Part shown: in pieces, positions 8,701 to 20,140 of the stretch | How positions within the stretch are numbered: the stretch's first letter is position 1 | Layout of the letters: each line of letters starts with the position of its first letter | NCBI GenBank assembly: GCA_963930775.1 | Contig: OZ005707.1 | Span: forward strand, 2,480,001-2,544,000 | DNA from: Cliona cf. orientalis | Taxonomy: Eukaryota > Porifera > Demospongiae > Clionaida > Clionaidae | DNA: 64,000 bases | Direction of reading: 5' to 3' | Program-made: the position numbers and the translations under genes | Notes under the pieces: model-generated | Seen by the model: only the letters and a program-made list of their open reading frames with translations | The model's database searches: none | What the model was told of the DNA's origin: nothing

Positions 8701-11700
8701 AAACGCCACAATTACAGAGTTAAGAGGGGGCAAGGATTGTACTAGTGCTTCTTATGAATAACATAGTGCTCATTACTCGTTTATACTAGGGGATCTGGGG
8801 GCATGCTCCCCCAGGAAATTTTTTTGACATGCTGAGACTGCTTCTGGTGGTTTCTGAGACTGATCTTGTCAATGATACCTACTGGTTCCCCTCCCTTTTA
8901 ATACAATATGTTTCCTCCTGCGCGGAGCGCAAAGCTGAGAATAATTTGTCTTAAGAAGGAGCAACAAGTGCCTATTTCACCATGCACATGTATTGCGTAT
9001 ATTGTTTGTGTCTATTCTCAAGGGGGGCAGCCAGCTTCCAAGGGGGGCGAGTGCCCCCTCCCCGCGCACCCCCCCCCCTCTTGAATGAAACCCTGTTGGG
9101 TGTATAAGCCCTTGATAGTGTTGTATAGCCTGTGAGTATCTATGGGAGGTTTTGTGAGGTTCCAAGTACAGTGTAGTCCACCTAATTCGAATCCGCTTAC
9201 CACGAATTTTCTTCTAATTCGAAGTCTTTCTAATTCCCCACATAGAGCTAATACATAAATTCGAAATGGCACTTTCGCTTAATTAGAACACGCACAAGGT
9301 CTAGTATACGGACATGCACATATAGTATACGGAAAATAGATCACGTGGGCATCACATGGCTGCAGATGAGTGTATATAGCTGCACTAGCCAGAAGTAGCT
9401 ATATCTAGCAGTATCAGGTTCTAAACTGTTAAAAGAAAGCTAGAAATAGTAGATGGAGTGGACAGTCTGCCTCCAGACAAGAAGAAAAAGGTTGTTGCAT
9501 CTGAATATGTAAAGATTATTATTATGTGTGGTAGCTATTATCCCTTTAATTCAAAATTATCATTCATATGAGCAAAATTCGAATTAAGTGGATGTTGCTG
9601 TAATTCAAATTTTCCTTTAATTCAAATTATTTGGGTGGATTTGTAAATTCGAATTAAGTGGACTACACTGTAGTTTGAGTGCTGGCTGCTGAAACTGAAA
9701 CCACAGTTAGTGTGAGTATATGCATAATTTCTATTTATAAAAAAATTATCGTACTGTACCTAATCATTTGTTGTAGCATGTATGCTTGCTTGTGCATGTA
9801 CATGTATACAGTAATAGTATGCACTTCTGTTTCCCTCTCTCTGCTAGTATCTCAAGTTGTACAACCCCACGTGATAGATTTAGTAAATACAAATTAATGA
9901 TTTATTTGCTATCTATGCCAGCACACAACTGTATAATGTTACATGTACTTGCAGTGCAACACTAGAGTTTTTGCTAGCTGTCCAACGATTGTATACTCTA
10001 TAATATAGCTACATTTCCTTGAGAAATGAATCTTGTACTTCAACGACCTGCATAAGGAAGACGAAATATTAATATGCATACCCATATGACAGTATTAACT
10101 GCAATTGAGTGTAAAAATTAATTTTGATCAATAATTAGGATTGGGCTTATTGTGTGTATGGGGAATTCTTTTTAATTTCGCAGCAGGGTGCTTGATATCA
10201 TTCCAAGATTGGAGCAATGACTAAAAGATGCCAGTCCATGCTTAGACATATTGCAGTTTACGGATCTGTATAGAATTTTAATCTTGCCTCTAGTGGTAGT
10301 TAGGGGGAATGATTATATGTGGCTATATCATGGAGTTCTTACCCCATTGTGATCCCCAGCAGAGTCCTGGACCCCACCAGCATTCATCGCTGTTTGACTG
10401 CATTATTTCCTTAGCAACCACCTCTTTTTCAAGTTCAATGATCATTATCTCCTTATTTGAGTCTTCTGGTGCTTGATCCAGGTAGATCTTGCCAGGAATT
10501 GGCCTGGTGTGAGCTAAGCTCAAACCAGTCACAAACAAGAAGAGAATAAAAATAGCTTTGGAGCTCATGTTCTTGATTGGATATCAACAGATAACTGGTG
10601 AAGGATTGCTCAGAACGAACTCCAACAACTGCAGATGATTTTGATTATCCTGACTAAATTTTTTTTCAGCTTTAGAATCTAAAGTGACTTCAACTATGTC
10701 CACTTATATAAAGAGCTTTGGACCTTTTCCTGTTCAGGCTCCTCCCAGCTGATTCAGTGTTGCATATTTCAGCATGCGTGTTCATAACCTTGAAAAGCTG
10801 GAAGGAGCCCGAGAAAGAGACTGCTTTTGAATGCAAGCTTAAAACTACGAGCAGCTAATTGTCTCAATTCCACTTAGCTACAAATGCAAGTCCATCTCAC
10901 TAAAAGGTTATGGCAAATTGGAAAGAAGTTTTTGGCTTGCTTAAATCCTGTTTTGACCATTAAAATTTAGAGTTATGCATTACTTCGTGGTGTTGCATCA
11001 GTTTAGCAATGTTTATAATGATTATCAGCCTCTGCTATTGTGTACAATCATCAATAAGAAAATAGAAACAGATGAAGGAATGCTCAAGCCTAAACCTACA
11101 TGCATACCTTGCAGTGCAGGAAGAGATTTATGCTCTGTTCTAATTCTACAACGATCTTCATGTAACGAATAATAATGATTTAAAACTTGGCTAAAATCAT
11201 CCCTACCACCTTGTCCCTATTTGACCATATCCCCAGTAGCTGCATAGTTCTCATGGTACATTTTATGGTAAAGGTCGTCAATATAATGCGTATACAGTCT
11301 ACAAGCCACATCGATGCCAGCGCCTCAATCACAGAGATGGAGTCTGAGACCAACTCTCAACCTCAATAGTGACAAGTTTCGATGCTTTAATCACAGGAGA
11401 TGAATTCGACAGCGCCGTATAGTTCCGAATGTCAGGTTGGTCACGGCATGGCACGTAGCGCGAGTGCTATAATACATAGCGCAAGGCTTGCTTTATTTTT
11501 TATATCAGCTAAGAGAATGCATGAAGTTTGGCCAGCAGTACTTGTCAGAGAAAGTAACACTAATGTATTCGCTGGATACAAGCGTCAGATACTCTACATA
11601 TTTACCAATTTTCAAGCCTCAGAAAGGCTCCATTGAGGCCCTGAATTTTTCATAATTACCTCATAAATTATACCATAGGTTTCATCATATTACACCATAA

Positions 11701-18606: not shown

Positions 18607-20140
18607 TCAACGTCCTGCATAAGGAAGATAAAATTATTAATATGCATACCCATGTGACAATAATAACTGCAGTGGAGTGTTAAAATTTCGAGGATCAAAC
18701 AAGATTGGAACAATAGGCTAGGGGATGCCAGTCCCTGCTCAGACATAATTATTATAATATTGCTTACTTCGAATGTGCATAGAACATTAATCTTGCCTAT
18801 ATAGTGATAGTTAGGGGGAGCCTTGCTTTGATTATTAACCCTCGGCGCATGCGCGAGGGTTACTGTAGTTGGTTTGTCTGTCTGTCTGTTACCACGCTAG
18901 CTGCTACATACCTCGTTTGCGAGTCCAATTTGCAGTGTTGTAAGATTCCTTATGGCGTTCCAAATGTATGATTTGTGTGGATTTCTCCGAAAATGCTTTG
19001 TTCGCCAGTTTTGGCATCATTTGCCAATTCTAAGCTTCTTGACTTTGCCCAGCTAGCGAGAGCATGATTTAAGTTATAGATAAGCTACACACTACTGAGG
19101 TTATCACACATACACAAGGTGGTTGTGCAAATAGACACCGAGGCGGAGCCGAGGTGTCTATTTGCATAACCATCAAGTGCATGTGTGGTAACCTCAGTAG
19201 TGTGTAGTTTGTCTGGCTTGTACTACAGCTGTAGTTTAACTACCATCTATTGCTGACTAAGCATAGTATACCTGCCCTAATTGGCAGTTAGACTACACCT
19301 TGGTGGTCTATGCTAGGTAAACTCTAGGCGGTGCCTTTGATGCACCCACGCACTGTAGTACAACGTATAAATAGGTTGCACGCTATATACAGTATGTACG
19401 TCTATAACCCTCAGCGCATGCGCGGTTGCATCAATCCTGCCTGGCAATCATGGGATGACAGTGGCTTCTTTTCAACTCCAAGGCTTAGCTGCCTATATTC
19501 TTGTGGTGGTATCTTTTGACTCTCTGGCTTGTATGCATGCATGGTATTACAGTGTTTGACATGCAATATTCAGTCTCAGTATACTTCAGTCTTGTGCCAA
19601 GGCCAAGGCTTTGCATCATAGTCCTTCAAGTTAAGATGTAACTAGCTATATAAGTCCCCAAGAATTGGAGGTAAGGCTACAGTGATCGAGGGAGGTTAAG
19701 TTGACGTCGACACCACAGTGTGGAGTTCGATACAACACCGTCTAGGGTTGTTGCTGCTGTGAGCTACTGTCTTGCCCCGCCCCCAGCCCTTTAGCTACCC
19801 TTACCCTTTCCTGTATGCAACTGTTGAAGTATGTTGCTAATGCCATGCAACGCGCCGAGGGTTTTGTGCTCGAGAGAGCTCTAGTTTGTAGCTGTATTGT
19901 GGAGTTCTTACCCCATTGTGATCCATAGCAGAGTCCTGGACCCCACCAGCATTCTTCGCTTGACTTCTTTGCTTCCTCAGGTCCTGGAACCGCATCTATG
20001 TCAAATTCAATGATCACTATCTTTACATTTGGGTCTTCCACTGCTTGGTCCAGGTAGATCTTGGCAGGAATTGGCTTGGTGTGAGTCAAAGTCAAAGTAG
20101 TCACCAACAAGAAGAGAAGAAAAATAGCTTTGAGACTCAT
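18607..20140 (-). CDS. Secreted Cys-loop peptide precursor, predicted Trp-amide, copy 2
   Basis: Exon 1 (20140-19912) encodes the signal peptide MSLKAIFLLFLLVTTLTLT, then PIPAKIYLDQAVEDPN, a diverged linker with the dibasic site KK, and then [17 protein letters not shown]. The donor inside the following Gly codon is identical to copy 1 (GGG before GTAAGAACTCCA). The acceptor (ATCTTCCTTATGCAG) at 18615-18629 is conserved, and exon 2 (18614-18607) again gives Gly-Arg-stop. The product is about 78 aa. The intron is about 1.3 kb because of inserted sequence. Cleavage after KK and C-terminal amidation would give a 17-residue Cys-loop peptide ending in Trp-amide (inference from standard prohormone processing). 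Reading through the donor would give a 132-residue frame ending in Gln/Pro, which I think is intronic. No recognised family. Confidence 0.7.
19085..19207. repeat. Near-perfect palindrome, about 58-bp arms
   Basis: CTACACACTACTGAGGTTAT on the left is mirrored by TAACCTCAGTAGTGTGTAG on the right. The arms meet at GACACCGAGGCGGAGCCGAG. It can fold into a long hairpin. It lies in the extra sequence within the intron of peptide gene copy 2 and has no counterpart in copy 1, so it is probably part of a foldback insertion. Confidence 0.85.

Follow-up and report, generated by a model that had tools for sequence, protein, structure and literature searches.

Whether sponges use amidated peptides as signals bears directly on the origins of nervous systems; sponges are without neurons and descriptions of such peptides from them are very few, which is why the gene pair reported here matters. 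According to the available part of a 2020 study, sponges had no known neuropeptide-like precursors although the processing enzymes were present, and the same text points out an effect of GLWamide on the settlement of two sponges (PMC7270403). Phoenixin (SMIM20) and nesfatin (NUCB), reported in 2022, were, as far as the authors knew, the first neuropeptides to be identified in sponges, and the available text of that study also mentions sponge cystine-knot growth factors related to glycoprotein hormones (PMC9004410). Here we describe two paralogous minus-strand genes, each encoding a candidate precursor of a looped, Trp-amidated peptide, in a 64,000-nucleotide stretch (the window, whose numbering is used throughout) of chromosome 19 (OZ005707.1, contig C19, positions 2,480,001-2,544,000) of Cliona cf. 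orientalis (GCA_963930775.1, odCliOrie1.1). This species is a demosponge, and the sequence-only reading of the window, which had placed it in a sponge-like genome, was thus right on its origin.

Each gene has two coding exons (copy 1, 10040-10568; copy 2, 18607-20140), with frames free of stops through 77 codons in copy 1 and 78 codons in copy 2, so that the predicted precursors have 77 and 78 residues, respectively. Both precursors follow the same order: a hydrophobic leader, a diverged spacer, the segment ECWWGPGLC(W/Y)GSQW, and Gly-Arg-stop. In both copies the Gly codon after the last Trp is interrupted by a phase-1 intron, the donor and acceptor of which are kept:

10343-10568, minus strand: copy 1 coding exon 1, with leader, spacer, peptide and the first base of the Gly codon (sequence and copy comparison)
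10506-10568, minus strand: copy 1 hydrophobic leader, a putative signal peptide, residues 1-21 (hydropathy)
10344-10382, minus strand: copy 1 peptide core, 13 residues (translation)
10048-10342, minus strand: copy 1 phase-1 intron, 295 nt (conserved splice sites, acceptor scan)
10040-10047, minus strand: copy 1 exon 2, coding part, with the rest of Gly, Arg and stop (copy comparison)
9901-9906, minus strand: copy 1 AATAAA poly(A)-signal-like site, 141 nt into exon 2 (motif)
10704-10710, minus strand: copy 1 TATA-box-like site, 142 nt upstream of the ATG (motif)
19912-20140, minus strand: copy 2 coding exon 1 (sequence and copy comparison)
20078-20140, minus strand: copy 2 hydrophobic leader, a putative signal peptide (copy comparison, hydropathy)
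19964-19969, minus strand: copy 2 Lys-Lys, a possible convertase site, four residues ahead of the first Cys (translation)
19913-19951, minus strand: copy 2 peptide core, 13 residues (translation)
18615-19911, minus strand: copy 2 phase-1 intron, 1297 nt, enlarged by repeats (splice sites, repeat matches)
18607-18614, minus strand: copy 2 exon 2, coding part, with the rest of Gly, Arg and stop (copy comparison)
18314-18319, minus strand: copy 2 AATAAA poly(A)-signal-like site, 295 nt into exon 2 (motif)
20228-20234, minus strand: copy 2 TATA-box-like site, 94 nt upstream of the ATG (motif)

The amidated precursors of cnidarians, ctenophores and placozoans share with the sponge pair a hydrophobic leader, a spacer, Gly and a basic residue after the peptide, and acidic residues before it, but the sponge pair differs in having one peptide per precursor and a predicted Cys ring. 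In the Wamide superfamily (GLWamide, MIP/allatostatin B and WWamide), the Trp-amide C-terminus (encoded here as W-G-R, the amide being predicted) and a further Trp near the peptide N-terminus are similar, whereas the sponge pair is without repeats and has a single peptide, two Cys, and SQW instead of GLW or (A/V/T)W. Contryphans, which are cone-snail venom peptides, combine one small disulfide ring, a Trp and an amide; the likeness to these Trp/Pro ring amides is one of general build only, and no homology is claimed. Phoenixin and nesfatin of sponges share with the present pair a secreted precursor, here predicted, and a phase-1 intron, and sponge phoenixin, as far as the available text of its description goes, has an amidation site too (PMC9004410). 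Phoenixin, however, is described there as conserved across animals and mostly encoded by three exons with two phase-1 introns, whereas the present genes, compared with it by gene structure, have two coding exons, one phase-1 intron and no known relative.

The two copies are 65% identical over the whole precursors, and the differences are unevenly spread. In the 16-column C-terminal tail only 1 of 16 columns is changed, against 27 of 62 elsewhere, including one gap (hypergeometric P 0.004), and at the nucleotide level 3 of 48 nt of the tail are changed (P 0.001); for both P values the tail block was picked after inspection of the alignment. The diverged middles and the C-terminal segment with one differing position had been described in the sequence-only reading, and both are found in frames at the positions given above. 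That reading had also claimed matching signal peptides: a strongly hydrophobic leader is present in both copies (mean hydropathy about 2.4 over 11 residues, by hydropathy calculation only), but the leaders agree at only 15 of 21 residues. By region, dN is 0.186 in the leader, 0.127 in a second conserved block, PIPxKIYLDQAxED (computed over PIPxKIYLDQA), that sits directly after the leader, 0.571 in the spacer and 0.055 in the peptide. Homology between the copies covers copy 1 from about 10936 to 9908 and takes in, besides the two exons, sequence upstream of them, 3' untranslated region (UTR) sequence and parts of the intron. Within exon 1 both of the two indels are multiples of three (6 and 3 nt), whereas only 5 of 26 are in the aligned upstream, intron and exon-2/3'UTR sequence (BLAST alignment).

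The exon structure is upheld by several observations. When the AGs behind each donor were scanned (700 nt for copy 1 and 2,000 nt for copy 2, excluding those that end in the first 60 nt), only the conserved AG yielded Gly-(Lys/Arg)-stop, that is, 1 of the 41 AGs of copy 1 and 1 of the 136 of copy 2, in agreement with the earlier claim of a split Gly codon and of conserved acceptors completing Gly-Arg-stop. The final 63 nt of the intron are more similar between the copies (56/63) than the whole of exon 1 (186/223), which in turn exceeds the upstream stretch (225/309). Of 499 genomic candidates for the protein read through the donor of copy 2, 150 were scored, so that there are at least 148 further matches, all in residues 61-126; nearly all of those scored begin after residue 73, close to the end of the exon at residue 77 or beyond it. 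The sequence past this donor is thus a genome-wide repeat, which supports an intron there, and the read-through protein was rejected as a gene product because its tail is a dispersed repeat. The same intron contains a 67-nt inverted repeat (19078-19214, 85% complementary) resembling a miniature inverted-repeat transposable element. Both predicted spliced forms end in WGR-stop, so that Gly and a basic residue directly follow the peptide. Unspliced RNA would give Trp-Gly-Lys in both copies, because the donor GGTAAG itself translates as Gly-Lys, and therefore the amidation signal is present whether or not the intron is removed.

Only these two copies were found in a DNA search of the genome. A protein search with the exon of copy 1 gave two candidates and two matches, the two copies themselves, and two motif patterns gave two matches each, with none for the backward control. 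These searches covered 216.79 Mb in 149 contigs, compared with the published 217.17 Mb in 307 scaffolds (available text of PMC12639293), and a strongly diverged relative would escape them. Among literature titles there was no sponge precursor of this kind, which in mostly open-access texts, supplements excluded, is not proof of absence. In the same body of texts one of six peptide motif strings occurred, in an unrelated paper, which accords with the earlier statement that no described family with this motif was known.

In short, the gene pair is real sequence with a strong prohormone anatomy. If the genes are expressed, they represent a new family of a known kind. The maturation that the anatomy suggests is as follows. 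The leader would direct the precursor into the secretory pathway, and the two Cys of CWWGPGLC would close a ring of eight residues. Cleavage to free the N-terminus would be by a peptidase and would use either the acidic pair that precedes the first Cys in both copies (Asp-Glu or Glu-Glu) or, in copy 2, Lys-Lys. The sequence-only reading had put Lys-Lys just before the peptide of copy 2; it is present, but with four residues between it and the first Cys (KK-SSEE-C), and it is absent from copy 1. Acidic sites are given as major, established cleavage sites in the sea anemone Nematostella and the ctenophore Bolinopsis in the available part of one study (PMC9525235), and another, likewise available in part, describes such sites ahead of cnidarian and placozoan peptides (PMC9545775). 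Finally, a carboxypeptidase would trim the terminal Arg and PAM would convert the exposed Gly to an amide, giving ...CWWGPGLC(W/Y)GSQW-amide with a Cys ring and a Trp-amide tail. The likeliest role of such a product would be that of a paracrine signal between sponge cells, because the peptide has been kept while the spacer diverged, a pattern to be expected if a receptor constrains its ligand.

By sequence, each enzyme type that the predicted amide would require is encoded in the genome. An amidating enzyme in the same genome had been proposed as a check on the peptide, and a two-domain PHM-PAL gene is indeed present on C14 (locus L052), with PHM-type exons followed by PAL-type exons. Its 13 exons, with borders drawn by eye and all GT-AG, join into a single stop-free frame of 710 residues, and the gene may extend beyond the end of the region examined. 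Against PDB, PAM was the best match (E 9.8e-114) and dopamine beta-hydroxylase was far lower (1.6e-15); the alignment to PAM spans both domains (PHM at residues 42-315, PAL at 448-708). The PHM paired His, His-x-His and Met-containing motif, which act as copper ligands, are retained on inspection of the printed alignment. P_proprotein had 13 matches in the genome, and the one examined (L037) matches furin (E 1e-41); its frame (L037, 1129-3249) is more than 700 codons long and carries a long run of Cys-rich furin-like repeats. Peptidase M14 had 21 matches, the best of which (L054) is closest to the gp180 carboxypeptidase domain (E 3.8e-115) and also matches carboxypeptidases M, N and D.

A family match to PF01082 alone was not accepted as PAM, because the PDB match of the best of the 31 exon matches in the genome, one exon long, was to dopamine beta-hydroxylase only, and weak (E 0.0024). 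Many further PF01082 exon matches, several of them locally clustered, lie on C2, C5, C6, C7, C10, C11 and C17 (L038-L051, L053), and possibly represent a sponge expansion of copper monooxygenases. NHL repeats were uninformative as a marker of PAL owing to a large NHL expansion in the genome (best 150 of 1043 candidates). Among these 150, dense arrays of long NHL-repeat frames, many of more than 700 residues, occur on C4 at about 10.64-11.12 Mb and also on C3, C6 and C13, and look like a large TRIM-NHL-like expansion.

Taken as a whole, the proposal of a secreted, processed and amidated signal peptide has, in our judgement, a slightly better than even chance of being correct. The sequence-only reading had suggested a secreted signalling peptide family; its prohormone-like anatomy is borne out and PAM, a furin-type convertase and an M14 carboxypeptidase are encoded, while signalling itself is what we infer. 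A number of observations weigh against the proposal. Copy 1 is without a dibasic site. Over the whole precursor dN is 0.248 and dS 0.284 (dN/dS about 0.87), and the differences at codon positions 1, 2 and 3 number 16, 16 and 18, without a third-position excess; outside the peptide the precursor thus appears hardly constrained, with no clear coding constraint in its sequence. The peptide holds a single synonymous change, and its conservation may come partly from low local divergence. Selection on the peptide is unprovable from two copies, because the peptide is too short and the synonymous divergence too small. No tblastn-confirmed relative was found among 34 pattern matches in prokaryote genomes and 32 in viral contigs, where a sponge gene would be unexpected, and phage records gave no DNA match. 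According to the available parts of the respective papers, mass spectrometry of the freshwater sponge Ephydatia fluviatilis detected no amidated endogenous peptides (PMC9525235), and in a cell atlas sponges and ctenophores were without the conserved placozoan peptidergic/neuronal expression programme (PMC10580291), which makes a peptidergic cell type like that of placozoans less likely. PAM was, moreover, known from sponges before and has ciliary roles, as stated in a source available in part (PMC6529398), and therefore its presence is permissive evidence and no proof of a peptide signal. Despite the negative peptidomics, PAM is retained in sponges (PMC6529398), and cnidarian Trp-amides elicit a response in two reef sponges (PMC3266265), again from the accessible portions of these papers. 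With a defined candidate peptide, the question of amidated signals in sponges becomes testable: the predicted [M+2H]2+ values of the disulfide-bonded amidated 13-mers are 781.826 for copy 1 and 770.319 for copy 2, and 986.393 for the SSEE-extended form of copy 2.

The main rival to a signal peptide, in itself rather unlikely, is a peptide secreted for defence (antimicrobial, antifouling or deterrent), looped and amidated, that acts on other organisms or microbes and not on a sponge receptor. Small Trp-containing disulfide peptides with C-terminal amides, such as contryphans, are known among defence and venom peptides, and two tandem copies with a fast spacer are compatible with either role. 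However, most antimicrobial peptides of the cationic type carry a positive charge, whereas the net charge here from residue 22 to the end is -4 in both copies, and the peptide core is without Lys or Arg. Furthermore, the usual arms-race pattern is a conserved leader with a variable mature peptide, and in the two sequences compared here the peptide is, on the contrary, the most conserved part.

It is quite unlikely that the product is instead a small secreted protein, neither cut nor amidated, in which the C-terminus works within the whole 56-57-residue protein. The conserved block right behind the leader and the absence of a dibasic site from copy 1 would fit such a protein, but a separate exon keeps Gly-Arg-stop directly after the last Trp in both copies. 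Nor was any family found for it: the read-through forms of both copies matched none in Pfam, NCBIfam (a prokaryote-oriented library) gave none, and a PDB profile search gave three chance-level matches, the best with E 0.44. These libraries are not neuropeptide collections.

A degenerating or never translated duplicate, that is, a transcribed or silent element with an open frame but no function, is very unlikely. The dN/dS ratio and the even spread of differences over codon positions are what it would produce, and repeats have invaded the intron of copy 2; against this stand the 77 and 78 stop-free codons, the frame-keeping indels of exon 1, the conserved splice sites, and the TATA-like and poly(A)-like sites in both copies.

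That the sponge peptide is a genuine member of the Wamide (GLWamide/MIP) superfamily is most improbable: the predicted C-terminal Trp-amide, the Trp near the peptide start and the reported rise in metamorphosis of two reef sponges under GLW-amide neuropeptides (PMC3266265, available in part) favour it, but Wamide precursors are described as repetitive in the accessible text of PMC7270403 whereas each precursor here has a single peptide, two Cys are present, and Ser-Gln-Trp stands in place of Gly-Leu-Trp. Within the signal-peptide proposal, a more specific version, in which the sponges' own looped Trp-amide family has as its receptor the target of cnidarian GLW-amides in the larval metamorphosis of reef sponges, is quite doubtful; if it were true, classical signalling by amidated peptides would operate in sponges in the absence of neurons.

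An Unr/CSDE1-like gene on the plus strand has copy 1 nested antisense between its exons, in the following feature:

8654-11966, plus strand: putative intron of the Unr/CSDE1-like gene, enclosing copy 1 (junctions 8653/8654 and 11966/11967 read by eye)

The exon at 7772-7867 matches Unr in PDB (E 1.8e-12) and CSD in Pfam with E 2.3e-5, just under the curated cut-off; at 15134-15361 a frame matches both, CSD with E 6e-8 and Unr with E 5.5e-7. The exon at 11968-12159, which adjoins the putative intron, had no match when searched alone. Copy 2 is located past the apparent 3' end of this gene (near 16285). The antisense overlap of copy 1 with the Unr/CSDE1-like gene could affect either transcript. 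A long CT microsatellite (13073-13300) lies inside the span of the same gene. Elsewhere in the window, a minus-strand open frame of 904 codons (39792-42506) had no Pfam match up to E 1, and three other frames had weak matches below the Pfam cut-off: COR-A (26255-28378, minus strand, E 1.2e-6), ZU5 (56436-57290, minus strand, E 0.009) and GIY-YIG (50634-51134, plus strand, E 0.0006), the last possibly from a mobile element.

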